Shown here: positions 30,870-43,468 of the stretch, in pieces | Layout of the letters: each line of letters begins with the position of its first letter | How positions within the stretch are numbered: the stretch's first letter is position 1 | DNA from: Prosthecobacter sp. | GTDB lineage: Bacteria; Verrucomicrobiota; Verrucomicrobiia; Verrucomicrobiales; Verrucomicrobiaceae | Assembly: GCF_029946185.1 (NCBI RefSeq) | Contig: NZ_JAQSEA010000080.1 | Location: 1 to 58,854 of the forward strand | Reading direction: 5' to 3' | DNA length: 58,854 nucleotides | The notes under the pieces: model-generated | Databases searched by the model: none | What the model was told of the DNA's origin: nothing | Seen by the model: only the letters and a program-made list of their open reading frames with translations | Program-made: the position numbers and the translations under genes

Positions 30870-32090
30870 ATGTCCCGTAGCTACATTTTCTCGTCCGAGT
30901 CCGTCGGCGAAGGCCATCCTGACAAAGTTTGCGACACCATTTCCGACGCCATCCTCGACGCCTGCCTTGCGATCGATCCGAAGAGCCGCGTCGCCTGCGA
31001 GACCTTTGCAAAGAGCAATGTCGTCGTCGTCGGTGGTGAGATCACCATCCCAAAGCTGCAGAACAAGAAAAACGGCACCACGAAGCCGATCGATGAAGTC
31101 ATCAACGTCGGCAAGGTCATCCGTGACGCTGTGCGCGGCATTGGCTACACCAATGACGACGACGTGTTCCACGCCGACAAGCTTTTCATCAACAACTACC
31201 TCACCATCCAGAGCCCCGACATCGCCCAGGGCGTGGACGCTGCAGGAGCTGAAGGCAAGAAGCATCAGGAACAGGGCGCTGGTGACCAGGGCATCATGTT
31301 TGGTTTCGCCTGTGACGACACGCCGGAACTCATGCCTGCGCCGATCATGTACGCCCACCGCCTTGGCCGTGAGCTGACCCGCATCCGCAAGGCTGGCAAG
31401 CTGGCCAAGTGGCTGCGCCCAGACGCGAAGAGCCAGGTCTCCGTGGAATACGTGGACGGCAAGCCGACACGCATTGTGAACGTCGTCATCTCCACGCAGC
31501 ACGCTGCGGATGTGAGCCACGCCGAGATCGAGAAGTTTTGCATCGAGCAGGTCATCAAGAAGGTGCTGCCGAAGAACATGCTCACCAAGGATACTGAGTA
31601 TCTCATCAATCCGACTGGCAAGTTCGTCGTCGGTGGCCCTCAGGGCGACAGCGGCCTGACCGGACGCAAGATCATCGTGGACAGCTACGGCGGCATGGGC
31701 CGTCACGGTGGCGGTGCCTTCTCCGGCAAAGACCCGTCCAAAGTGGACCGCAGCGCCGCCTACATGGGCCGCTGGGTTGCCAAGAACGTGGTGGCCTCCG
31801 GCCTCGCCTCCAAGTGCGAAGTGCAGTTCGCTTACGCCATCGGCCATCCAGAGCCTGTGAGCGTACACATCGACACCTTCGGTACCGGAACGATCGATGA
31901 CGACAAGATCCTGGACGCCGTCTTGAAGGTGTTCTCCTTCAAGCCTGCTGACATCGTCAAGCAGCTCAACCTGCTGCGCCCGATCTACTCGAAGACCACC
32001 AATTACGGTCACTTCGGCAAGAGCGACGATACAGACCTTACCTGGGAAATCACCAACAAGGCTGAGGCGCTCAAGAAGGCTGCGAAGTAA
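30870..32090 (+). CDS. metK: S-adenosylmethionine synthetase
   Basis: A 406-residue cytosolic enzyme making SAM from Met and ATP. Hallmarks in order: [24 protein letters not shown], then [21 protein letters not shown] (the ATP/Met loop), then [21 protein letters not shown] and [19 protein letters not shown]. It is slightly longer than the usual 380-400 residues. The start follows a short leader with a hairpin. An excellent terminator follows at 32118. SAM is the donor for the two methyltransferases of the lipid operon downstream, but a separate transcript is likely. Confidence 0.96.
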
Positions 32091-32203: not shown

Positions 32204-33199
32204 ATGTCCGAAATGCGTTTCAATCCCATCACACTTGATTGGGTTGTCATGGCTCCGGAGCGGGCGCTGAGGCCGGATGATTTTCATCCGCAGGTGGCGT
32301 CGCATCTAACGCGGCCTCCGCATCGTGACGGCTGCCCTTTCTGCACAGGGAACGAAGCGCAGACTCCAGGTGAGATCGCCCGCATGAGCGCCCAGGATGG
32401 CTCCTGGCTGGTGCGTGTGGTGCCCAATAAATATTCCGTCTTTGACGCCACGCTGAATGTGCAGCGGAAAAAGAACGGCACGTTTCGATCCATGTCCGCT
32501 TCGGGTGTGCATGAGGTGGTGGTGGAGCATCCACGGCATGATCTTGACCTCGGAGAGATGGATCCGGCGCATTTGGAGCTGGTGCTGCGAATCTACCGGG
32601 AACGCTACCAAGTGCTGCGTGGCCACCCGATGGTGGAGAGCATTGTTATTTTCAAAAACCAGGGGCAGCGCGCGGGCAGCTCCCTGGAGCATTCGCATTC
32701 GCAGATTACAGCGGCGCCGGTGCTGTCCTCGCAGGTGTGCATGCGTTTGCAGGAGGCGCGGCGTTTTCACGAACTGGAGGGCGGGTGTTTGTATTGTACG
32801 GTGCTGCACGAGGAGCTGCTGGCCGAAGAGCGAATTCTCGAAACTGGAGAGGCGTTTGTCGCCTTCATGCCCTATGCCGCGCTGTCGCCCTATCACACCT
32901 GGATTTTTCCGCGCAAGCATCAGGCGGCCTATGATGAGATCAGCGATGCGGACATCGGGGAACTGGCGGGCGTGCTGAGCCGCCTGCTGCGACGGTTGAA
33001 GGCTGCCGCAGGTGCACCGGACTACAACATCACCATTCGTTCCGCGCCGGTGGGAGAGGTGTCTGGGTGCTTCCACTGGTATCTATCGGTTGTTTCTCGC
33101 ATTTCCCAGCTCGCTGGATTTGAGCTGGGAAGTGGAACATTTATCAACAGCATGCGGCCTGAGAGGTGTGCGGAACGTGTGCGCGGCATTTTGATTTAG
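32204..33199 (+). CDS. GalT-family nucleotidylyltransferase
   Basis: A 331-residue member of the galactose-1-phosphate uridylyltransferase family of the HIT superfamily. The zinc-type Cys pair is in GCPFCTGNE near residue 45, with a second in GCLYCTVLHEE. The active-site triad reads EHSHSQI, where classical GalT has HxHPQ; this Ser-for-Pro form is also seen in APA-phosphorylase-like and archaeal relatives. No gal kinase or epimerase lies beside it. It follows metK after a terminator and is separated from the lipid operon by 106 bases. Confidence 0.8.
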   Translation: MSEMRFNPITLDWVVMAPERALRPDDFHPQVASHLTRPPHRDGCPFCTGNEAQTPGEIARMSAQDGSWLVRVVPNKYSVFDATLNVQRKKNGTFRSMSASGVHEVVVEHPRHDLDLGEMDPAHLELVLRIYRERYQVLRGHPMVESIVIFKNQGQRAGSSLEHSHSQITAAPVLSSQVCMRLQEARRFHELEGGCLYCTVLHEELLAEERILETGEAFVAFMPYAALSPYHTWIFPRKHQAAYDEISDADIGELAGVLSRLLRRLKAAAGAPDYNITIRSAPVGEVSGCFHWYLSVVSRISQLAGFELGSGTFINSMRPERCAERVRGILI

Positions 33200-33305
33200 C
33201 GGGTGGTGTGGAACTCACGTGCGCCGGGAGCGAGCAGCACCAGACGATCGCCAATATTTGCCATTTTTTTGAATCCAGAAGAAAGGGGCAGACGCATAAG
33301 GAGGC

Positions 33306-34310
33306 GTGAAAAGTGAAGTCCCTGCGAATAAACCCCAAAAACGGAAGCTCCTCTGGCAGATCGCCGTGATGATGAGGCAGTGGTTTGACTCTGACTACCG
33401 CCCGCCGGGCTGGGAGGGGGACGACAAGCTGACGGACGGCATCGACTGGCGGCGCTGCCTTCCCTTCATCGTGCTGCATCTGGGCTGCCTGACCGTGCTC
33501 TGGGTGGGCTTTAGCTGGGTGGCGCTGGTGGCTGCGCTGCTGCTTTACGCGGTCCGGATGTTTGCCATCACGGCTTTTTACCACCGCTATTTCTCGCATC
33601 GGAGCTTCCGCACTTCGCGCTGGATGCAGTTTGTGTTTGCGGTGTTGGGAAATACCTCGTGCCAGCGCGGGGCCTTGTGGTGGGCTTCGGTGCATCGCCA
33701 TCATCATCAGCATTCCGATGAAGCGCCGGACGCGCACTCTCCGCGGATGCGGGGTTTTATCTGGTCTCACATCGGCTGGCTAACCAGCCCGAAAAACTTC
33801 CCCACGGACTACAGTCGCATCCGCGATCTGGAGCAGTTCCCGGAGTTGGTGTTTCTCAACCGGCATGATCAAATTGTGCCACTGCTCTATGGCGCGTTTC
33901 TTTGGCTCACGGGATGGCTGATGGAGCGCTATGCGCCCGGACTCGGCACGAATGGCGCGCAGATGTTTGTGTGGGGATTTTTCATCAGCACGGTGATCCT
34001 TTTGCATGCGACGTTTTTCATCAACTCACTCGCTCATGTGTTTGGCTCAAAGCGTTTCAAGACGGATGACGACAGCCGCAACAGCCTGCTGCTGGCGCTG
34101 CTGACGCTGGGTGAGGGCTGGCACAACAATCACCACCGCTATGCGGGCTCTGCGCGGCAGGGCTTCTTCTGGTGGGAGATCGATGTGTCCTACTACCTGC
34201 TCAAAATGCTGTCCTGGTGCGGCCTGATTTGGGACCTCAAGGCGGTGCCGCCGAGTGTGTACCGTGAGGCGGCGCAGCTCAAACAATCAGCCCAAAACCC
34301 TGGCGCATGA
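33306..34310 (+). CDS. Membrane fatty-acyl (acyl-CoA/phospholipid) desaturase
   Basis: A 334-residue membrane di-iron enzyme. All three His boxes are present: HRYFSH (93-98), HRHHHQH (130-136) and HNNHHRY (about 273-279), in the spacing of delta-9 type acyl desaturases. Four hydrophobic helices flank them. It inserts a cis double bond into a long acyl chain using oxygen and an electron donor. The GTG at 33306 is preceded by AGGAGG but only one base away, so the ATG at 33369 is a possible alternative start. It opens the lipid operon; its stop overlaps the next start by four bases. Confidence 0.9.
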   Translation: MKSEVPANKPQKRKLLWQIAVMMRQWFDSDYRPPGWEGDDKLTDGIDWRRCLPFIVLHLGCLTVLWVGFSWVALVAALLLYAVRMFAITAFYHRYFSHRSFRTSRWMQFVFAVLGNTSCQRGALWWASVHRHHHQHSDEAPDAHSPRMRGFIWSHIGWLTSPKNFPTDYSRIRDLEQFPELVFLNRHDQIVPLLYGAFLWLTGWLMERYAPGLGTNGAQMFVWGFFISTVILLHATFFINSLAHVFGSKRFKTDDDSRNSLLLALLTLGEGWHNNHHRYAGSARQGFFWWEIDVSYYLLKMLSWCGLIWDLKAVPPSVYREAAQLKQSAQNPGA

Positions 34311-35581
34311 AACCGCGCCTGGCCATCATTGGGACGGGGGTTGCCGGACTGGGCTGCGCACACTTCTTGCAGCGGGATTTTGATCTGACGATCTTTGAGC
34401 AGAACGATTATGCTGGTGGCCATACCAATACCGTGACGGTGAGTGAAGCGGGGCGGGAGCTACCGGTGGACACCGGTTTCATGGTGTTCAATTACGTGAC
34501 GTATCCGCTCCTGAGCCGCCTGTTCAAAGAACTCGACGTGGCGACGAAGCCGACTTCGATGTCATTCAGTGTGTCGCATCTGCAAAGCGGCATTGAATAC
34601 AATGGCACTTCGATGAACCATTTGTTCGGACAGCGTCGCAATCTGATCAGTCCTCGGTTTTGGAAATTTGTCCTGCAGATCAATCGCTTCAATGCCGAGG
34701 CTGTGGCGGCGCTGGATGATCCACGCTTTGCCCGCATGACGCTACGCGATTATGTGGAAGCACGCGGTTATGGCAGTGACTTCCTCAATCTCTACATCAT
34801 CCCGATGGGCTCTGCGGTGTGGTCCACGCCGCCGGAGCTGATGCTGGAATTTCCGGCGCTGACGCTGATCCACTTCTGGCACAATCACGGGTTCCTTGGC
34901 CTGAACACGCAGCATCCGTGGCGGACGGTCACGGACGGAGCGCGGTCGTATGTGAAGAAACTAACTGCGCCGTTCAAGGATCGCATCCGGCTTGGGTCTC
35001 CCATTGTTCGCGTCGAGCGGGATGCGGAGGGGGTGAAGGTGTTTCCGCGTGATGGCGGGGCTGAGCTGTTCGACAAGGTCATCTTCGCCAGTCATGCCGA
35101 TCAATCGCTGCGCATGCTAGCCAAGCCGACTGATCTTGAAGGCGAGCTGCTCGGCTGCTTCAAATACCAGCCTAACATCGCCACGCTGCACACGGATGAG
35201 AGCTTCATGCCCAAGTCGAAAAAGTGCTGGGCCTCGTGGAACTACCGTATCAAGCCGACGGCGGGTGGTGGCATCGAGCCGAGCACGCATTACTGGATGA
35301 ACAGCCTGCAGGGGGTGTCTGACAAGACCAACTACTTCGTCGCGATCAATGCCGCTGATGAGATAGCCCCGGACAAGGTGCTGAAGCGAATCAATTACGA
35401 ACATCCACTTTTCGATCTGGCTGCAATAGATGCGCAGAAACGACTGCCTGATCTGAATCGAATATCTCGTGACCAAAGCACGTATTTTTGCGGCAGCTAC
35501 TTTCGCCACGGTTTTCATGAAGATGCTTTTGGATCAGCCGTTGGCCTTTGCCGTGACCTTATCGGAAAGGAGCCTTGGTGA
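34307..35581 (+). CDS. FAD-dependent amine-oxidase-like oxidoreductase of a CFA cluster
   Basis: A 424-residue flavoprotein. The N-terminal dinucleotide-binding loop is IIGTGVAGLGCAHFL, with the ribose Glu in FEQNDYAGGHTNT and the flavin contact VDTGFMVFN. It ends with the FAD motif TYFCGSYFRHGFHEDAFGSAV. This is the flavoprotein family usually next to DUF1365 and a CFA-type methyltransferase in Proteobacteria, including the RpoE-ChrR-controlled photooxidative-stress genes of Rhodobacter. The reaction is uncharacterised here; oxidation or reduction of a modified acyl chain is plausible. Confidence 0.85.
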   Translation: MKPRLAIIGTGVAGLGCAHFLQRDFDLTIFEQNDYAGGHTNTVTVSEAGRELPVDTGFMVFNYVTYPLLSRLFKELDVATKPTSMSFSVSHLQSGIEYNGTSMNHLFGQRRNLISPRFWKFVLQINRFNAEAVAALDDPRFARMTLRDYVEARGYGSDFLNLYIIPMGSAVWSTPPELMLEFPALTLIHFWHNHGFLGLNTQHPWRTVTDGARSYVKKLTAPFKDRIRLGSPIVRVERDAEGVKVFPRDGGAELFDKVIFASHADQSLRMLAKPTDLEGELLGCFKYQPNIATLHTDESFMPKSKKCWASWNYRIKPTAGGGIEPSTHYWMNSLQGVSDKTNYFVAINAADEIAPDKVLKRINYEHPLFDLAAIDAQKRLPDLNRISRDQSTYFCGSYFRHGFHEDAFGSAVGLCRDLIGKEPW

Positions 35582-36381
35582 TGGAAGTCGAATCCGCCAT
35601 CTATGAATGTGCGGTGATGCACCACCGGCTGCATCCGAAGGTGCATCGTTTCAATTACAATGTTTTCTACCTGTGGCTTGATCTTGATGCCATTGACAGC
35701 CTCGCTGCAAAGCTGCGCTGCTTCAGCCGCAATCGTTTCAATCTGTTCTCCTTTTATGATCGCGATCATCTGGGTCTCGGTGCCGGTGATGTGAAGGCGA
35801 ATATCCTGAAGTATCTTGGGGAGAACGAAGTGGATACCGGGCGTATCGCCAGCATCCGCCTGCTTACTTTCCCACGAGTGCTTGGCTACATCTTTAATCC
35901 GGTGTGCTTCTACTATGCCTTTGATGCTGCCGGAGAGGCGGTCTGCGCAGTGGCGGAGGTAACCAATACCTTCCACGAGCAGAAGCCGTATGTTTTGATG
36001 GAGTGTGATCGTGCGCAGCGATTTCGGCTCATTACTCCAAAGCATTTTTATGTATCACCTTTTTCGGCGCTCGATTTGAGATTTGATTTCAAACTGCAAG
36101 TGCCGGATGAGAAGCTGGAAATTCACATCGACGACGAGAAAGAGGGTGATCGCGTGCTGCTCACTTCACTTACTGGCAAACAGCGGCCGCTGACGGATGC
36201 CGCGCTGCTGCTCTGTGCGGTGAAGTATCCGCTGCTCACGCTGCGCGTGATTTTTCTCATCCACTGGCATGCGCTGCGGCTGTGGCTGAAGCGCATTCCC
36301 TGGCACCGCAAATCAGACAATGCCGGGCTGCAGCTCGGAGTTCTTCGCCCGCACGAATCCATCGCACCTCAAAAACCATGA
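35581..36381 (+). CDS. DUF1365-family protein
   Basis: A 266-residue protein. ATG at 35581 overlaps the preceding stop (TGATG) and has AAGGAG eight bases ahead. DUF1365 signatures are clear: SAIYECAVMHHRLHPKVHRFNY at the start, LTFPRVLGYIFNPVCFYYAF in the middle, EVTNTFHEQKPYVL and FYVSPFSALD. The family always travels with CFA-type methyltransferases and the preceding flavoprotein but has no assigned reaction. A hydrophobic helix near 215-240 suggests membrane contact. Its stop overlaps the next start by four bases. Confidence 0.9.
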   Translation: MEVESAIYECAVMHHRLHPKVHRFNYNVFYLWLDLDAIDSLAAKLRCFSRNRFNLFSFYDRDHLGLGAGDVKANILKYLGENEVDTGRIASIRLLTFPRVLGYIFNPVCFYYAFDAAGEAVCAVAEVTNTFHEQKPYVLMECDRAQRFRLITPKHFYVSPFSALDLRFDFKLQVPDEKLEIHIDDEKEGDRVLLTSLTGKQRPLTDAALLLCAVKYPLLTLRVIFLIHWHALRLWLKRIPWHRKSDNAGLQLGVLRPHESIAPQKP

Positions 36382-37658
36382 ACGACACAATCACCTACGA
36401 AACCGACCTCCAAGTCTCCAGCCCTGCGGCGGCGAAGCCTGGCTTTTATGAACGGCTTTTCATGCTTTCGCTGAAGCCCTTTGTTCACGGTGGTCTGAAG
36501 ATAGTTCTGCCAGATGGGCGCACCCATGTGCTGGGTGAGCATGGGGCCAAGATCACGGCGGAGATGCGCATCCGCAGCCGTGCATTTTTCAAGCACTGTG
36601 TTTTGTATGGCAATGTCGGATTCGGCGAGGCCTACGTCGAGGGTGAATGGGAGACGGATGACATCGCGGCGGTGATTGAGTGGTTTATCCTGAACCTCTC
36701 GAAGTCACAGGGATCGCGCACTTCGTCCAGCAAGATGGCCTTTGTGAATTTGCTCAACTTAGTGAACCGCGCGCATCATCTGCTGCGGCCGAACAGTGTG
36801 AGCACCAGCCGACGCAACATTGCCGAACATTACGATCTGGGGAATGAATTCTACTCTCTCTGGCTCGACGAGACGATGACGTACTCTGCGGCGCGTTTTG
36901 AACATCCCGGTCAGCCGCTGGCGGAGGCGCAGCATTCCAAATACGAGGCGCTCTGCCAGAAGCTGCAGCTCAAGCCGGGAGATCATGTGCTCGAAATCGG
37001 CTGTGGCTGGGGCGGATTTTCCTGCCATGCCGCGAAGCATCACGGCTGCCGCATCACCGCTGTCACGATTTCAGAGGAGCAGCACAAGTATGCCACTGAA
37101 CGCGTGGCGCGCGAAGGGTTGGCTGATCAGGTGGAAATCCGCCTGCAAGACTATCGACACATCACTGGGAAGTTCGACAAGATCGCCTCCATCGAAATGC
37201 TTGAGGCTGTGGGTGACAAGTATCTTGAAACCTACTTCGCAAAGTGTGCTGAAGTTCTGAAGCCGGAAGGCATGCTGGCTTTCCAGATGATCACGGTGGC
37301 CGACTGCCAGCACAAAGATCTGCGCGATGGAGTGGACTGGATTCAAAAGCACATCTTCCCGGGCTCGCTGCTTCTAAGTGTGGGGCGTGTCAATGAAGCC
37401 ATCAACCGCACCAGCGAACTCTTCATGCATGGGCTCGAAGATCTGGGCGCGTCGTATGCGAAGACACTGAGTCTGTGGTTTGAGCGCTTCAATGCCAAGC
37501 TCACGGAGGTGAAGTCGCTCGGCTTTGATGACCGCTTTGTCCGCAAGTGGAATTTCTACCTGCAATACTGCGAAGCGGCCTTTGCCACGCGGAACATCAG
37601 CGTGGTGCAGGCCGTTTACACCCGCCCCAACAACGCTACTCTGCATCAAACCTTCTAA
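36378..37658 (+). CDS. CFA-synthase-family SAM methyltransferase with altered active site
   Basis: A 426-residue protein of the cyclopropane-fatty-acid synthase family, started at MNDTITYETDLQVSS (36378). The SAM loop is VLEIGCGWGGFSC (from about 204), and HYDLGNEFYSLWLDETMTYS is the family's lipid-facing segment. In E. coli Cfa a Cys and a His hold bicarbonate; here the Cys position in YSCAYW is Ala171 (YSAARF), and the His of the LLHTIGS strand appears replaced (FQMIT, 302-306), while the Glu of MLEAVG (276) remains. It may therefore make a methyl or methylene branch rather than a cyclopropane. Confidence 0.85.
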   Translation: MNDTITYETDLQVSSPAAAKPGFYERLFMLSLKPFVHGGLKIVLPDGRTHVLGEHGAKITAEMRIRSRAFFKHCVLYGNVGFGEAYVEGEWETDDIAAVIEWFILNLSKSQGSRTSSSKMAFVNLLNLVNRAHHLLRPNSVSTSRRNIAEHYDLGNEFYSLWLDETMTYSAARFEHPGQPLAEAQHSKYEALCQKLQLKPGDHVLEIGCGWGGFSCHAAKHHGCRITAVTISEEQHKYATERVAREGLADQVEIRLQDYRHITGKFDKIASIEMLEAVGDKYLETYFAKCAEVLKPEGMLAFQMITVADCQHKDLRDGVDWIQKHIFPGSLLLSVGRVNEAINRTSELFMHGLEDLGASYAKTLSLWFERFNAKLTEVKSLGFDDRFVRKWNFYLQYCEAAFATRNISVVQAVYTRPNNATLHQTF

Positions 37659-37663
37659 GCGCC

Positions 37664-37996
37664 ATGATCTGGTTTCTTCGTTTCTTTTTTCTCCTAGTGC
37701 TGGGGTCCATGCTCGCCGTCACGAGCTGGGCATCCACGCAATGTCCGCTCTGGGAGATTCCGGGATCTGTGGGCGGTCATCCGTGGTTCATTGCCACGCT
37801 GTTTGACACTTATTGGGCCTTTCTCACCTTCTACTGCTGGGTCGCCTATAAGGAGCGCTCGTGGCTTGGCCGCATTGGCTGGCTGGTCGGCATTCTGCTG
37901 CTCGGCAATATCGCGATGGCGGTCTATATGCTCATCCTGCTTTTCCGTGTGCCGACGAGTGCGCGCATGGAAGACCTCCTCCTACGCAAAGCATGA
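37664..37996 (+). CDS. Small membrane protein, DUF1475-like
   Basis: A 110-residue protein started at MIWFLRFFFLLVLGSM (37664). It has three hydrophobic helices (about 3-20, 40-60, 70-95) and a loop ASTQCPLWEIPGSVGGHPW before TLFDTYWAFLTFYCWVAYKE. This matches the DUF1475 pattern of small three-helix proteins found in methyltransferase/CFA clusters. The gene starts six bases after the CFA-type stop and overlaps the next gene by four bases. The function is unknown. Confidence 0.75.
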   Translation: MIWFLRFFFLLVLGSMLAVTSWASTQCPLWEIPGSVGGHPWFIATLFDTYWAFLTFYCWVAYKERSWLGRIGWLVGILLLGNIAMAVYMLILLFRVPTSARMEDLLLRKA

Positions 37997-38493
37997 CTGA
38001 ACCCGTCAAGCGCGAATCTATCTGGCGGCGCTGGGTGGTGAAGCCGGTCGTGGCGCAACTGGCGCAGGGGACCACTCCTGCCAAAATCGCGCAGGCCATT
38101 GCCTTCGGTGTCACGACGGGGGTCTTTCCACTGCTGGGAACCACGACGGTGCTTGCTTTGGCAGTGGGCTTTGTGTTGAAGCTCAATCAACCGGTACTGC
38201 AGGTTTTTCGTGAGCTGACCTATCCGCTGCACCTTGCCACGCTTCTGCTCTTCATGCGCGCGGGGGAGTCGCTGTTTGGTGCTGAGCATGTGCCGCTTTC
38301 CATTCCCATGATGATGGAGCGTTTCTTAACCGCCCCCGGACAGTTCATGGCCGACTACGGAATGATCGGTCTTTACGGTGTGGTCGTGTGGCTGCTGATC
38401 GCGCCGCTGCTCCTCGGGTTAGTTTATTTCATCAGCAAATTTCTGGTCGAGAAACTCTCCAAACGCTTCAACTTCGCACGCCATGACGCATGA
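37993..38493 (+). CDS. DUF2062 membrane protein
   Basis: A 166-residue protein. The motif LAQGTTPAKIAQAIAFGVTTGVFPLLGTTT followed by LNQPVLQVFRELTYPLHL is the DUF2062 signature, with two or three membrane helices (about 35-70, 90-105 and 125-150). Such proteins are often found with glycosyl or acyl transferases and lipid genes; their role is not established. It overlaps the preceding gene by four bases and the next by 11, so translation is coupled. Confidence 0.85.
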   Translation: MTEPVKRESIWRRWVVKPVVAQLAQGTTPAKIAQAIAFGVTTGVFPLLGTTTVLALAVGFVLKLNQPVLQVFRELTYPLHLATLLLFMRAGESLFGAEHVPLSIPMMMERFLTAPGQFMADYGMIGLYGVVVWLLIAPLLLGLVYFISKFLVEKLSKRFNFARHDA

Positions 38494-39274
38494 ATTTTTG
38501 TTCCTAATCGGCATTGGCACGGCGGTGGCGTTCGTGTTGTTTACGCTCACTTGGTGGCTCAGTTTGAAACTGAACAATTTCAGTTTTGTCGACGTAACGT
38601 GGTCTTACGCGCTCGCGGTCATTGCGCCGCTTTACGCAATATTAGGTGGCGGCTTTACGCAGCGAAAAATGATCGCGATGACGATGGGTGTGCTGTGGAG
38701 TCTGCGACTGGGCACTTATCTTTTCTTTCGGGTTAAAGGCCACCATCCACATGAGGATGTGCGCTACGCCGTGCTGCGTGAGAAATGGAAGGAGGGTCTG
38801 GCGAAGAACTTTTTCTTTTTCTTCCAGGCTCAGGCCTTGCTCATTGTGCTGCTGGCAGTGCCGGTGTTGCTCGCGTGCTTGAATCCAGCGCCGCAGTTGG
38901 GTGTTATCGAAATGATCGGGGCCGGTGTGTGGTTGGTGGGTATCTGTGGCGAGGGCTTGAGCGATGCTCAGATGAAGCGTTTCAAAGCGGACCCAACTAG
39001 CAAAGGCAAGGTGTGTCAGGTCGGTCTCTGGCACTACTCGCGGCATCCGAACTACTTCTTCGAGTCCGTCGTGTGGTGGGGATTCTGGCTCTTCGCCTGC
39101 GGCTCGCCTTGGGGCTGGGCCACTGTGTATGCTCCTGCTTTGATCCTGTATTTTTTGCTGCGTGTCACCGGCATCCCACTGACGGAAGAATGTTCTGTGA
39201 AGAGCAAGGGGGATGCCTATCGCGAATACCAGCGCACCACGAGTGCCTTTGTGCCGTGGCCGCCAAAAAGTTGA
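38483..39274 (+). CDS. DUF1295 / steroid 5-alpha-reductase-like membrane protein
   Basis: A 263-residue membrane protein with about six helices. The C-terminal signature is LWHYSRHPNYFFESVVWWGFW, then GIPLTEE...KGDAYREYQRTTSAFVPW, as in DUF1295 and isoprenylcysteine-methyltransferase/5-alpha-reductase relatives, which bind NADPH or SAM in that region. In Proteobacterial CFA clusters the same family is a regular member, suggesting reduction of a modified acyl chain. It overlaps the DUF2062 gene by 11 bases. Confidence 0.85.
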   Translation: MTHEFLFLIGIGTAVAFVLFTLTWWLSLKLNNFSFVDVTWSYALAVIAPLYAILGGGFTQRKMIAMTMGVLWSLRLGTYLFFRVKGHHPHEDVRYAVLREKWKEGLAKNFFFFFQAQALLIVLLAVPVLLACLNPAPQLGVIEMIGAGVWLVGICGEGLSDAQMKRFKADPTSKGKVCQVGLWHYSRHPNYFFESVVWWGFWLFACGSPWGWATVYAPALILYFLLRVTGIPLTEECSVKSKGDAYREYQRTTSAFVPWPPKS

Positions 39275-39314
39275 ATCCAGTCTTTCTCCAAGGTCGCACA
39301 ACTCACCAAACCGC

Positions 39315-40352
39315 ATGAGCACCATCAACGCCATCCTCGCCAAGAACATCCTGCCGGACACCATGATCCGGCTCGGCATCCGCCAGCGTCTTGCCGAGAC
39401 TCTGCGGGAGAACAAACAGCCCACCACCGAAGCGCAGCGCGCTGCTTTGATGCGCTATGTGCAGGATCTCAAGCAGATGCCGGTGGCCATTGCGACGGAT
39501 GAGGCCAACGAGCAGCATTATGAAGTGCCCACCCGGTTTTACCAGCTCGTGCTCGGCAAGCATTTGAAGTATAGCTCGGGTTACTGGCCGGATGAAAAGA
39601 CGACCTTCGATGAATCTGAGGCGGCGATGCTGAGACTGACGTGTGAGCGCGCTGAGTTGCAGGATGGGCAAAGCATTCTCGAACTGGGCTGCGGCTGGGG
39701 CTCCCTGTCACTGTGGATGGCAGAGCATTATCCGAATGCGAAGATCACCAGCGTGTCCAACTCGCGCACGCAGAAGCTGTTTATCGATGGTGAGGCTGAG
39801 AAGCGCGGGTTGAAAAACCTGACAATCATCACGGCGAACATGATTCACTTCGAAGGTGTGGGCACGGGTGTCTTTGACCGCTGTGTGTCGGTGGAGATGT
39901 TTGAGCACATGAAGAACTACCAGGAACTGCTGCGCCGTGTTTCCACATGGTTGAAGCCGCGCGGGAAGCTCTTCGTTCACATCTTCACCCACCGTGAATA
40001 CGCCTACCATTACGAGGTGCGCAGCGAGGACGACTGGATGGCGAAATATTTCTTCACCGGCGGTCAGATGCCCAGCGATGATCTGCTGCTCTACTTCCAG
40101 GATGATTTGAAAATCGAAGACCACTGGTGCGTGAGCGGCCAGCATTACTCCAAGACTAGCGAGGCCTGGCTGGCGAACATGGATGCGCACAAGGCGGAGA
40201 TATTGCCACTGTTTGCCGAAACGTACGGCAAAGATCAGGTGACCAAGTGGTGGGTCTGGTGGCGCTTGTTCTTCCTCGCCTGCGCCGAACTGTGGGGATA
40301 CCGCGGTGGCGAGGAATGGATTGTTTCACACTATCGCTTTATCAAACCATGA
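39315..40352 (+). CDS. Coclaurine-N-methyltransferase-like SAM methyltransferase
   Basis: A 345-residue SAM enzyme of the CFA superfamily, started at MSTINAILAKNILPD (39315). It follows the plant coclaurine N-methyltransferase pattern almost end to end: EQHYEVPTRFYQLVLGKHLKYSSGYW, ILELGCGWGSLSLWMAEHYP (from 120), FVHIFTHREYAYHYE, MPSDDLLLYFQDDLKIEDHW and GQHYSKTSEAWLANMD. The catalytic Glu194, Glu197 and His198 of EMFEHMKNY are kept. Substrate in bacteria is unknown; an amine lipid or unsaturated acyl chain is plausible. A 40-base gap precedes it; the stop overlaps the TPR start. Confidence 0.85.
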   Translation: MSTINAILAKNILPDTMIRLGIRQRLAETLRENKQPTTEAQRAALMRYVQDLKQMPVAIATDEANEQHYEVPTRFYQLVLGKHLKYSSGYWPDEKTTFDESEAAMLRLTCERAELQDGQSILELGCGWGSLSLWMAEHYPNAKITSVSNSRTQKLFIDGEAEKRGLKNLTIITANMIHFEGVGTGVFDRCVSVEMFEHMKNYQELLRRVSTWLKPRGKLFVHIFTHREYAYHYEVRSEDDWMAKYFFTGGQMPSDDLLLYFQDDLKIEDHWCVSGQHYSKTSEAWLANMDAHKAEILPLFAETYGKDQVTKWWVWWRLFFLACAELWGYRGGEEWIVSHYRFIKP

Positions 40353-41095
40353 AAACGACACTCACTCTTTTGGCTGCCACGCTCTTGGCAGGGCATGCCT
40401 TTGGTGACTTCGCCGAACTCGTAAAGCAAGGCGATGCGGCTGATGCCAAGTTCAAGGCGGATGCGGCGCTGGAGTCCTACCTGCCTGCTGAAAAGCTGAA
40501 TCCCAATGATGCTTCGCTGCTGGTGAAAATCGCGAGGCAGTATGTGTATCGCATGGCGGACCTGTCCTCCAAGGCCGAGCAGTTGAAGGCAGGACGCACT
40601 GCACTCGATTATTCTGAACGAGCGGTGAAGCTGGCTCCCAAGGATTCGGATCCGCATCTCGCGGTCGCCATCTGCCTTGGCAAACTTTCTCCGCTTCTCG
40701 GCAACAAGGGCAGCATCGAGGCCTCACACAAGATCAAATCCGAGGCAGGAACTGCGGTGAAGCTCAACCCCAAGGACGACTTTGCCTGGCACCTGTTGGG
40801 GCGCTGGAATCAGGAACTGGCGCAGATTGGTGGGCTGACACGTGCTGTGGCCATGGTCGTTTACGGCTCTCTGCCCAGTGCTTCCTATAACGAGGCGGTG
40901 CAGAATTTTCAGAAAGCCATCGCGTTGAATCCGAACCGCTTGATCCATCATGTCGAACTTGGTCGCACCTACGCCCTGATGGGACGCAAGGAGGAGGCGA
41001 AGAAGTTCATCGAAAAAGGCCTCGCGATGTCGAACCGGGATCGGGATGACCCAGAGACGAAGGAGCGGGGTCGGAAGACGCTGCAGGAGCTCTAA
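40349..41095 (+). CDS. Exported TPR protein, last gene of the lipid operon
   Basis: A 248-residue protein with a signal peptide (MKTTLTLLAATLLAGHAFG). TPR-like helices follow, with PNDASLLVKIARQYVYRM and PKDSDPHLAVAICLGKLSPLLG, then FQKAIALNPNRLIHHVELGRTYALMGR. The arrangement recalls the regulator-of-microtubule-dynamics-like TPR proteins common in Bacteroidota and Verrucomicrobiota. Its start codon overlaps the preceding stop (ATGA), tying it to the operon although its role in lipid chemistry is unclear. It converges with the MFS gene, 21 bases away. Confidence 0.8.
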   Translation: MKTTLTLLAATLLAGHAFGDFAELVKQGDAADAKFKADAALESYLPAEKLNPNDASLLVKIARQYVYRMADLSSKAEQLKAGRTALDYSERAVKLAPKDSDPHLAVAICLGKLSPLLGNKGSIEASHKIKSEAGTAVKLNPKDDFAWHLLGRWNQELAQIGGLTRAVAMVVYGSLPSASYNEAVQNFQKAIALNPNRLIHHVELGRTYALMGRKEEAKKFIEKGLAMSNRDRDDPETKERGRKTLQEL

Positions 41096-41116
41096 TGAGC
41101 TTCCCGGTCCTGCCAC

Positions 41117-42382
41117 TCAGGCACCCGCTTTCGCGGGAGCTGAGCGACCCTCTCCTTCCACCTCTGGAAGAAACATGGTCAGCAGGCCCAGGAGGGGCAG
41201 GAAGGCGCAGAAGTGGAAGACGAAGTTGATGCCGTGGAGGTCCGCGACTTTTCCCAGCACGGCGGAGCCAATGCCTGCGATGCCAAATGCCATGCCAAAG
41301 AACAGCCCTGCGATCATGCCAACTTTTCCAGGCATGAGTTCCTGAGCATAGACCAGGATGGCTGAGAATGCGGAGGCGAGGATGAGGCCGATGATGACCG
41401 TGAGCACCGCGGTGAGCGCCAGCCCGGCATGCGGCAGCCACAGGGAGAAGGGCGCGGCCCCCAGGATGGAAAACCAGATGACGCGCTTGCGGCCAATGCG
41501 ATCACCCACCGGTCCGCCCACGATGGTGCCCAGGGCGACGGCAAAGAGGAACAGGAACAGGTAATACTGCGAGGTCTGCACCGAGACATGGAAACGCTCC
41601 ATGAGGTAGAAGGTGTAGTAGTTGCTCAGACTGACCAGATACACGTATTTGGAAAAGATCAGCATCACCAGGATGGCCATGGCAAAAGCCACCCTGCCGG
41701 AAGTCGGGCGGGACTGGGCTGCGGCGGCGGTGCGCGCCTGTTTGCGCTGGATGCGATGCAAATTCCGCGCCTGCCACATCCCGACCTGCCACAGCACGAA
41801 GACGCCCAGCATTGCGATGATGGAGAACCAGGACAAGGCAGCCTGCCCATGGGGCACGATGAACCAAGCCGCCAGCAAGGGGCCGATGGATGAGCCTGCA
41901 TTGCCACCCACCTGAAACAGTGACTGCGCCAGCCCGCGCCTTCTTCCTGCTGCCATGTGGGCGATGCGTGATGCCTCTGGATGGAAGATGGCGGAGCCTG
42001 AGCCGACCAACGCCGAGGCGACCAAGATGGCCGGGTAACTGCCCGCTTTGGAGAGGGCGAGCAATCCCACCAGTGTCAGACCCATGCCCACCGGCAGGGA
42101 GTAGGGCAGCGGACGCTTGTCTGTGATGTATCCCACCAACGGCTGCAGCAGGGAGGCCGTGACCTGGAAGGTCAGCGTGATGAGTCCGAGTTGGGTAAAA
42201 GTGAGTCCGTACGATTCCTTGAGCACTGGATAGATGGCAGGCAGGAGGGCCTGAATGGTGTCATTCAGCATGTGCGAAAAGCTGATGGCAAACAGCAGCG
42301 CGAAGACGGTTTCTTTTGAGTCCGGCGTTGCGCTGGGGGCGATCGCGTGAGTTGGTTGGTCCTCGATCATCGTGTCATTCAT
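41117..42382 (-). CDS. MFS exporter, fosmidomycin-resistance (Fsr) type
   Basis: A 421-residue, 12-helix inner-membrane transporter, started at MNDTMIEDQPTHA (42382). The first helix ends SHMLNDTIQALLPAIYPVLKE, which with the following QLGLITLTFQ is the hallmark of the Fsr/YfnC family; the loop GYITDKRPLPY and the helix SGSAIFHPEASRIAHMAAG also match. Fsr of E. coli exports fosmidomycin; natural substrates are unknown. The AraC gene lies 54 bases upstream on the same strand and may regulate it. Confidence 0.85.
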   Translation of the reverse strand: MNDTMIEDQPTHAIAPSATPDSKETVFALLFAISFSHMLNDTIQALLPAIYPVLKESYGLTFTQLGLITLTFQVTASLLQPLVGYITDKRPLPYSLPVGMGLTLVGLLALSKAGSYPAILVASALVGSGSAIFHPEASRIAHMAAGRRRGLAQSLFQVGGNAGSSIGPLLAAWFIVPHGQAALSWFSIIAMLGVFVLWQVGMWQARNLHRIQRKQARTAAAAQSRPTSGRVAFAMAILVMLIFSKYVYLVSLSNYYTFYLMERFHVSVQTSQYYLFLFLFAVALGTIVGGPVGDRIGRKRVIWFSILGAAPFSLWLPHAGLALTAVLTVIIGLILASAFSAILVYAQELMPGKVGMIAGLFFGMAFGIAGIGSAVLGKVADLHGINFVFHFCAFLPLLGLLTMFLPEVEGEGRSAPAKAGA

Positions 42383-42436
42383 AGGGACGAAGATTCTTCG
42401 CCTGAAGGCCTGAGTGCACAATCTGGCGGGCTGGTG

Positions 42437-43336
42437 CTAGGCGGCTTCTGACTGGTATTTTTCTCGGATTGTGTCGCGGAACTCCCCCGGCGTCTGTCCG
42501 GCATGGAGGCGGAAAAAACGCGTGAAGTAGGAGGGGTCCTGGAAGCCCGTCTGGTAGCCGATTTCGGAGACGCTGAGGTCAGAGTGCAGCAGCAGGCGCT
42601 TGGCATCCAGCAGACGGCGCTGGCGTATCAGTTCCCCGGCGGCATGGCCGGTCTCCTGACGGATGACGTCGTTCAGGTGATTGACGGTGATGCCGAGTTC
42701 CTTGGCATACGGTGCCAGCGCCTGCCATTCGCGGAAGTGGTGCTCCAGGGCCAGATGAAACTGGCGGGCCAGCAGTGTCGCACGCGAGGCCTCTTTGACG
42801 GGATGCTTGCGAGCATACAGCCGCCCGGTTTGGATGAAGAGGATGCGGAGTGTGGCGCGCAGCACCTCTGCCACGCCGGTCAGTGCGGCATCGTACTCCC
42901 TCTGCAATTCTGCAAACAGCGCGGTGATCCGTGCTGCCTCTTCCTTGCTCACCGACAGCCAGGGCGCGACGCCGGAGCTAAAGAAAAAGGGCAGATCAAA
43001 CAGCATGCTGGGCGGGGGTGCCTGATGATCAAAAAACTCCTGGGTGAAGGAGACCACCGTGCCGCGCATCTGCGGTGAGGGGTGAATGGTGTGGACCTGC
43101 CCGGGGCTGAGGAAAAACAAAGTCACGCCGGTGACGTCATGATCACGGAAATCATGCATGAGCCTGCCTGCTCCCGTGATCAGGAAGACCTGGAAGAAAT
43201 CGTGGAAATGCGGGATGAGCCGCTGCGGCTCCTGCGTCATGGAAAACTCCAGCGGCATGACCACGAAGCCCTCCGAGCGCAGCCGGTCCTGGCCGTACAC
43301 GCTCATCTGGAGAGAGGGGATGGTGCGGCGGTTCAT
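42437..43336 (-). CDS. AraC-family transcriptional regulator
   Basis: A 299-residue regulator, started at MNRRTIPSLQMSVYG (43336) because the upstream frame crosses repeat hairpins. An N-terminal cupin-like sensor (PHFHDFFQVFLITGAGRL, FFLSPGQVHTI) is followed by two C-terminal HTH motifs: AKELGITVNHLNDVIRQETG, and SVSEIGYQTGFQDPSYFTRFFR with the AraC signature. It likely responds to a small effector, perhaps an aromatic or sugar acid. It probably drives the MFS gene that follows on the same strand. Confidence 0.88.
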   Translation of the reverse strand: MNRRTIPSLQMSVYGQDRLRSEGFVVMPLEFSMTQEPQRLIPHFHDFFQVFLITGAGRLMHDFRDHDVTGVTLFFLSPGQVHTIHPSPQMRGTVVSFTQEFFDHQAPPPSMLFDLPFFFSSGVAPWLSVSKEEAARITALFAELQREYDAALTGVAEVLRATLRILFIQTGRLYARKHPVKEASRATLLARQFHLALEHHFREWQALAPYAKELGITVNHLNDVIRQETGHAAGELIRQRRLLDAKRLLLHSDLSVSEIGYQTGFQDPSYFTRFFRLHAGQTPGEFRDTIREKYQSEAA

Positions 43337-43395
43337 CGGTGGAAAAGAGCGCGGATGTGGAGCGTTGTTCGGTGACGGCAGACTGTGCGGAGGTT

Positions 43396-43415
43396 TTGTG
43401 TCACCGCTACGCGGT
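43396..43415. repeat. 20-bp repeat with internal palindrome, copy 1
   Basis: The word TTGTGTCACCGCTACGCGGT occurs identically here and at 43475-43494. Its last 13 bases (ACCGC TAC GCGGT) are a perfect hairpin, as in REP elements. Confidence 0.8.
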
Positions 43416-43448
43416 TCCACGGAAAGAGGATTTTCCGCCGACGCGCTA

Positions 43449-43468
43449 CCGTGGGTTTGCACCCACGG
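43449..43468. repeat. 8-bp perfect hairpin between the two REP-like copies
   Basis: CCGTGGGT and ACCCACGG flank a TTGC loop. With the two copies at 43396 and 43475 it gives three hairpins in about 100 bases, a BIME-like arrangement. The cluster lies upstream of the araC-type gene and downstream of the transketolase terminator. Confidence 0.7.

Follow-up and report, generated by a model that had tools for sequence, protein, structure and literature searches.

A stretch of 58,854 nucleotides from Prosthecobacter sp. (NZ_JAQSEA010000080.1), here called the window, contains nine colinear open reading frames on the + strand (positions 33306-41095), which very probably form an operon for the production of a dimethyl furan fatty acid, as judged from the predicted proteins and the order of their genes. 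Two observations are new here: the DUF1295 protein encoded by gene 7 is tightly associated with UfaO, the furan-forming DUF1365 protein, and an element of the form TGAATCC-N16-CG is found before the first gene and before gene 8, the fufM-type gene. Furan fatty acids of plants, fish and microbes are scavengers of singlet oxygen and act as antioxidant membrane lipids.

The putative furan fatty acid operon

Passages of PMC7380195 describe a furan fatty acid pathway, whose four steps were demonstrated in R. (Cereibacter) sphaeroides and R. palustris. UfaM methylates cis-vaccenate, UfaD introduces a second double bond, UfaO closes the furan with oxygen derived from O2, and FufM attaches a further methyl group to the ring; the reductant and the cofactors of UfaO are stated to be unknown in these passages. 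The window encodes the same four enzyme families, and genes 2, 3 and 4 follow the families and the D-O-M order of the R. palustris genes RPA2571, RPA2570 and RPA2569, which the same passages assign to UfaD, UfaO and UfaM, respectively. Gene 2 (34307..35581, +) encodes a UfaD-type flavin desaturase (PF01593 Amino_oxidase, 70 bits; PF13450) that matches the amine oxidase LkcE (8e-32), gene 3 (35581..36381, +) a UfaO-type DUF1365 protein (PF07103, 262 bits) and gene 4 (36378..37658, +) a UfaM-type methylase of the cyclopropane fatty acid (CFA) superfamily (PF02353 CMAS, 286 bits). The FufM-type methylase, which is similar to coclaurine N-methyltransferases, is encoded by gene 8 (39315..40352, +; PF02353 CMAS, 139 bits), and the only two CMAS-family matches over the cut-off in the whole host genome both lie within the operon. 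The UfaD-like flavoprotein, the DUF1365 protein and the CFA-type methylase, encoded together here, are all three present in 48 of 53 loci from the window's family. Genes 2, 3, 4 and 8 thus match UfaD, UfaO, UfaM and FufM in family, order and active-site class, which predicts a dimethyl furan fatty acid as the product and a C-methylase as the enzyme encoded by gene 8.

Homology and gene order suggest the following sequence of steps. The product of gene 1 would supply a monoene chain, which the gene 4 product would methylate at the double bond, with a shift of that bond; the gene 2 product would then add a second double bond, the gene 3 product would insert an oxygen derived from O2 and close the furan, and the gene 8 product would place a second methyl group on the ring. 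Gene 1 (33306..34310, +), which starts with GTG, encodes an SCD1-like acyl desaturase (PF00487 FA_desaturase, 82 bits), and its top PDB match is acyl-CoA desaturase 1 (1.7e-31). A delta-9 specificity of this enzyme would place the ring at C8-C11 instead of C10-C13. The host genome contains eight desaturase-family matches, and because no FabA was found there above the cut-off, unsaturated chains probably derive from host desaturases. The AlphaFold2 (AF2) model of gene 3 is a barrel (predicted local distance difference test score, pLDDT, 94.8) resembling fatty acid-binding proteins (FABP), nitrobindin and spirocyclases, with Z scores of at most 7.0 that are too weak to name a cofactor, and a sequence search gave no credible solved relative. 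The DUF1475 small protein of gene 5 (37664..37996, +; PF07343, 39 bits for a query with nine extra N-terminal residues), the DUF2062 protein of gene 6 (37993..38493, +; PF09835, 41 bits) and the tetratricopeptide repeat (TPR) protein of gene 9 (40349..41095, +; PF21033 RMD1-3/TPR, 48 bits, and TPR models), whose N-terminus looks signal-like by eye, would be accessory parts.

The genes are closely packed, with distances of -4, -1, -4, +5, -4, -11, +40 and -4 bases in gene order, that is, overlaps of 1-11 bases at six of the eight junctions and gaps of 5 and 40 bases, the latter in front of gene 8. The Pfam match of each of the nine genes exceeds the curated cut-off of its family. The sequence-only reading of this DNA had reported nine same-strand, mostly overlapping genes of these families and a lipid-chain-modifying operon (desaturation, methylation, oxidation) akin to RpoE-ChrR and furan fatty acid clusters, and is borne out on these points. 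Its scheme of chain modification holds in outline but was too loose, as an enzyme can be assigned to each step, from UfaM through UfaD and UfaO to FufM.

E. coli Cfa belongs to the superfamily of genes 4 and 8 and is 37% identical to gene 4, a clear member of this superfamily. Hence one may ask whether the operon yields cyclopropane or methyl-branched chains only, with a flavoprotein and a DUF1365 protein that do not form furans. Plant relatives make cyclopropane and yet share the EMxEAVG signature of gene 4; the motif is thus a class mark, which does not fix the product. In gene 4, however, C139, H240 and H266 of Cfa are replaced by A, A and Q, while E239, I268 and Y317 are kept; with C139, E239, H266, I268 and Y317 presumably forming the active site of Cfa, gene 4 departs from this set at C139 and H266. 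In an alignment of 110 gene-4-type rows, including that of the window, 109 retain E239, I268 and Y317, and all 109 rows that span H240 and H266 have A and Q at these positions. Co-occurrence was followed in 194 evenly drawn Verrucomicrobiota genomes, the same set being used for UfaO (E 1e-15), FufM (E 1e-60), DUF1295 (E 1e-15) and DUF1475. UfaO is present in 46 and FufM in 38 of these genomes, and all 38 with FufM also have UfaO. Furthermore, UfaO and UfaM are fused in a single frame in nine of the 46 UfaO genomes (L175-L183, chosen for their long frames), and a fusion is also found in Salisediminibacterium (L173). The fusions and the restriction of FufM to UfaO genomes bind the genes into one path, and a product without a furan is considered improbable.

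Gene 8 is 26.3% identical to gene 4. Its nearest solved structures are plant coclaurine and pavine N-methyltransferases (3e-87; 6gkv, 3.2e-87), which it matches over nearly its full length, and the match to Cfa is far weaker (1e-26). The sequence-only reading had allowed for an additional N- or C-methylation step. If the gene 8 product N-methylated a head group or an amine, the operon would make two different lipid changes, which seems very unlikely: according to passages of PMC7380195, FufM, the relative whose action on lipids was tested there, C-methylates the furan and is 26% identical to UfaM, and FufM without UfaO was not found in any of the 194 genomes at E 1e-60. Gene 8 resembles FufM in encoding an additional CFA-like methylase with about 26% identity to its UfaM-type partner, and its type was seen only in UfaO-bearing genomes of this set. 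In addition, Arabidopsis LIME1, which we place in the coclaurine/pavine N-methyltransferase class closest to gene 8, is 37.9% identical to FufM (passages of PMC10940516). Gene 8 is therefore best read as a C-methylase of the ring, and the N-methylation half of the earlier claim is set low.

Several points weigh against the operon being a furan fatty acid operon. The orthology of genes 2, 3, 4 and 8 to the tested enzymes is drawn from family, context and motif. The signature of gene 4 is shared with the plant cyclopropane synthases, and the Cfa residue C139 is retained in 11 of the 110 gene-4-type rows (the others have A in 52, S in 45 and G in two). At the cut-off used, no FufM was found in eight of the 46 UfaO-bearing Verrucomicrobiota genomes. 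Lastly, no lipid data for Verrucomicrobiota were found in the open-licence literature, where the phylum was named in one narrow query that could miss a paper containing only 'furan fatty acid' and 'Verrucomicrobi'.

Promoter-like elements and candidate regulators

Two promoter-like elements, both overlooked by the sequence-only reading, are present on the + strand. The first, TTGAATCC-N-CGCA (33269..33296), lies 37 bases 5' of the GTG of gene 1, and the second (39271..39298) lies 44 bases 5' of the ATG of gene 8. The 5' DNA of gene 1 in the window and in 13 relatives is alignable only around TTGAATCC and CGCA. Both strands of the window and the 53 family loci, 914,458 bases in all, contain 29 matches to the pattern TTGAATCC-N15-18-CG[ACT][AC]; 18 of the matches lie before the first gene and nine exactly 44 bases before gene 8, and the remaining two are found before gene 3 where this gene comes first (L053) and elsewhere (L040). 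The looser form TG[AC]ATCC-N15-17-CG was counted up to a distance of 150 bases from a gene; in the family loci it occurs in 36 of 52 cases for the first gene and in 18 of 36 for gene 8, compared with 3 of 260 for all other operon genes and none of 54 random places (0.009 expected per stretch). Outside the family it is rarer (first gene, 9/62; gene 8, 4/85; gene 7, 5/69). These motif counts, like the synteny counts below, come from related genomes and are not independent, and the TGA of the second element is at the same time the stop codon of gene 7, so that it is not independent evidence.

The conserved element TG[AC]ATCC-N16-CG is a candidate promoter of the type read by extracytoplasmic function (ECF) sigma factors. 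A promoter of the form TGAATCC-N16-CG probably starts the operon and again fufM, and is probably read by an ECF sigma factor; such promoters would permit induction of both under oxidative stress. A plain sigma-70 promoter was considered and rejected, as a scan of positions 33000-41400 gave two matches, neither of them on the operon strand, whereas shuffled sequence averaged 3.5.

A further point against the overall reading is that a sigma factor of its own was not found for the window: queries with Mesorhizobium sigma and ChrR proteins gave no match within it, so that no pair of sigma and ChrR genes, as in RpoE-ChrR clusters, was found beside the operon there. ECF sigma genes adjoin three related loci. 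In two nine-gene loci, L107 (2150-3600) and L122 (2321-3774), a SigK-like ECF sigma factor and an RskA-type anti-sigma factor are encoded divergently from gene 1, and a TGCATCC element is present in both directions of the divergent pair. At L055, an ECF sigma gene and a gene for a ChrR-cupin protein, the only such protein at the three loci and one below the NCBIfam ChrR cut-offs, are located 3' of gene 9 on opposite strands. On a plasmid of Burkholderia anthina, the element lies in front of the sigma gene and also of both the DUF1295-fufM unit and the ufa trio. What we take to be a parallel in the sigK region of M. tuberculosis was not used, as the locus names were not found in a literature search.

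Related loci and the association of DUF1295 with UfaO

Compared with the pathway in the passages of PMC7380195, in which Verrucomicrobiota are not treated, the four genes are here united in one operon with genes for a desaturase, DUF1475, DUF2062, DUF1295 and TPR proteins, and fufM has a promoter-like element of its own. Furan fatty acid levels rise upon loss of chrR in the organisms of these passages. A close arrangement on a plasmid is that of Acinetobacter piscicola (NZ_CP048660), where the genes for the desaturase, the flavin adenine dinucleotide (FAD) protein, DUF1365, the CFA-type methylase, DUF1295 and an S-adenosylmethionine (SAM) methyltransferase follow each other in identical order; it differs by a lipocalin gene in front, a histidine kinase gene behind and the absence of DUF1475, DUF2062 and TPR proteins from the listed features. 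Plasmids of Mesorhizobium terrae and B. anthina carry the FAD, DUF1365 and CFA genes, as well as DUF1295 paired with FufM, but these are split into several units and adjoined by ECF sigma and anti-sigma genes, the latter coding for ChrR in Mesorhizobium. Plasmid pRL12 of Rhizobium johnstonii contains sigma-ChrR, the FAD gene and the DUF1295-FufM pair, and no DUF1365 is listed in the stretch. The DUF1365 and FAD genes are also carried by Klebsiella pneumoniae records of the plasmid collection.

Similar sets are present in eukaryotes, without an operon and with products that are not given in the passages concerned. AtUFAMD1, AtUFAO1 and LIME1 of Arabidopsis lipid droplets represent the CFA, DUF1365 and FufM-like families (passages of PMC10940516), and the SAK1 singlet-oxygen genes of Chlamydomonas comprise these families plus DUF1295. 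According to passages of PMC4067076, the Chlamydomonas CFA1, CFA2, DUF1365 and DUF1295 genes need SAK1 for their induction by singlet oxygen, and CFA2 is named coclaurine N-methyltransferase CPLD27 in another table. Genes for fasciclin, DUF2177, heme-binding and MsrP proteins lie beside the ufa genes on the M. terrae plasmid (L093), and DUF2177, fasciclin and SOUL heme-binding genes are likewise SAK1-dependent singlet-oxygen genes in Chlamydomonas (passages of PMC4067076).

The nine-gene set had been thought to lack a known counterpart, a claim that falls, since the core order is found on the Acinetobacter plasmid and the whole set recurs in Verrucomicrobiota; the neighbourhood search across this phylum that had been proposed as a check shows that conservation is not limited to one strain. 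Gene 3 is present in 56 of 68 genomes of the window's family and in 42 of the 47 most complete ones, and gene 8 in 35 of the 53 family loci, 32 of which have DUF1295 directly upstream on the same strand. When named genomes were scanned with a FufM alignment, 585 matches were confirmed, the best 80 of which belong by title to Verrucomicrobiota, Bacteroidota, Vampirovibrio and other cyanobacterial-side lineages, Planctomycetota, Acidobacteriota, Pseudomonadota and one Bacillota strain; none of these 80 loci is from Rhodopseudomonas or Cereibacter. All nine families are found together at 11 of the 53 family loci, at five of the best 80 of 585 and at L186 and L187, which argues for more than a chance arrangement, while other loci lack some of the genes, partly because contigs end there; in these counts, L108 of the best 80 is taken as identical to L036. 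A strain-specific assembly is ruled out by this synteny.

Upstream of the operon and on its strand, the window contains metK, coding for S-adenosylmethionine synthetase (30870-32090), and a galT-like gene (32204-33199), and one or both are also found at 12 of 58 relative loci searched (L108 of the wider scan being taken as a duplicate of L036). Directly 3' of the operon, genes for a major facilitator superfamily (MFS) transporter (41117-42421) and an AraC-type regulator (42437-43462) lie on the opposite strand.

Besides the two elements, the sequence-only reading overlooked the tight association between DUF1295 and UfaO. DUF1295 is present in 44 of the 194 Verrucomicrobiota genomes, namely in 43 of the 46 that bear UfaO (the others being G117, G152 and G153) and in one of the 148 that lack it (G212), for which the Fisher value, with phylogeny ignored, is 2.6e-38. 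Seven of the eight UfaO genomes without FufM have it as well. In 18 of the 43 genomes, DUF1295 and UfaO are on different contigs or at least ~100 kb apart; the association is thus not explained by close linkage alone, though some of the assemblies are drafts. DUF1475 is present in 18 of the 194 genomes, 17 of which have UfaO; 16 of the 18 matches are over the cut-off, and the exception without UfaO, G222, is below it.

The same association is seen in wider samples. Among the best 80 of 585 FufM loci, DUF1295 is encoded within the locus in 66 and directly upstream of FufM in 63. One of the loci counted without it (L167) turned out to contain it on closer look, and a genome-wide search for nine of the 14 (L097, L099, L136, L145 and L149 excluded) found it in 9/9. 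Several Bacteroidota loci consist of two blocks, 1-5-7-8 and then 2-3-4, so that DUF1475 and DUF1295 are grouped with FufM; at L114, L129, L144, L150, L154 and L155 the 1-5-7-8 block is followed by gene 2 (and 3 and 4), in some with a hydrolase gene in between. A Mesorhizobium FufM query matched 45 plasmid records, and in 44 of 44 (a Leptolyngbya match of 27% identity being left out) DUF1295 lies within ~130 bases upstream on the same strand; DUF1475 was not found on plasmids. In Bacteroidota, UfaO is present in 7 of 198 genomes, all seven of which have DUF1295.

Some observations count against so close a partnership. In Bacteroidota, DUF1295 is also found in 12 of 191 genomes without UfaO and thus has other contexts there. 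Of the 61 plasmid records with DUF1295, 60 of which were listed, 17 have no FufM match, and a Phyllobacterium plasmid (L094) has DUF1295 without ufa genes; in Legionella lytica, DUF1295 occurs with the trio, and no FufM is annotated in the stretch examined. The Pfam DUF1295 model recovers the same strong set in Verrucomicrobiota, and a further seven genomes give matches of less than 30 bits, of which six exceed the Pfam cut-off of 20.4; we read these weak matches as other members of a wider superfamily. In Verrucomicrobiota, DUF1295 is a near-obligate partner of the UfaO pathway and may supply a component that the published scheme lacks. A link between DUF1295 and furan fatty acids was found nowhere in the open-licence literature searched by title or passages.

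Fold and possible role of the DUF1295 protein

Gene 7 (38483..39274, +; PF06966, 235 bits) encodes a DUF1295 membrane protein resembling steroid and sterol reductases. Its AF2 model (pLDDT 97.1) is closest to delta-14 sterol reductase (Z 15.0 over 240 residues, 4.0 Å), PbSRD5A (Z 14.8) and SRD5A2 (Z 13.7), with 208-240 residues matched in the three reductases, although, by the tool's own caution, helical models may score up to Z ~14 through a common arrangement without kinship. Foldseek E values are weak (0.014 at best), and a search with the single sequence gave no solved relatives. PF02544 Steroid_dh matches with 32 bits over a cut-off of 22.6, and together with the Z scores this points to the fold of NADPH reductases of the steroid 5-alpha-reductase type.

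The same fold is shared by ICMT (Z 12.7, 11.7 and 11.5), AtTam46 (Z 10.9) is the best solved sequence match in a profile search (3.4e-5, ahead of SRD5A2 with 2.6e-4), and the C-terminal part also matches Ma-ICMT. It is a serious possibility, if one that falls somewhat short of an even chance, that DUF1295 acts in synthesis and not in repair, where it would reduce or isomerise an intermediate, or that it is a membrane methyltransferase using SAM, as ICMT and PEMT are. However, the reductases score highest and span residues 1 to 260, whereas the ICMT structures 5v7p and 4a2n match only from residue 56, and the PEMT model, unlike Steroid_dh, stays below its cut-off. Furthermore, N190, which is invariant in a 60-row alignment, corresponds to N in all three reductases (SRD5A2, PbSRD5A and delta-14 reductase), whereas AtTam46 has I and Ma-ICMT has M at this position. 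Profile alignment places D161, likewise invariant in the 60 rows, a lysine and N190 at D164, R171 and N193 of SRD5A2, which we take to be NADPH contacts.

Oxidation of furans gives ene-diones, and we suggest that DUF1295 reduces the ene-dione that remains after singlet oxygen or radicals have consumed the furan. Such a putative role after furan oxidation is preferred because FufM made the second methyl group in R. sphaeroides and in vitro, DUF1295 not being named in these passages of PMC7380195, a finding that at the same time tells against DUF1295 as a part of the pathway. In the tentative and rather doubtful form to which this leads, DUF1295 would be a dedicated NADPH reductase that detoxifies the ene-dione or yields a 1,4-dione able to re-close to the furan, and the lipid would be a redox-recycled membrane antioxidant, co-regulated with its synthesis by an ECF sigma factor and common to bacteria and green algae.

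Taken together, the predicted operon of Prosthecobacter sp. would unite every published step of furan fatty acid synthesis in one place. Gene order, genome co-occurrence and algal co-induction single out DUF1295 as an unstudied partner of the pathway, and this partnership makes the fate of the furan after oxidation directly testable.

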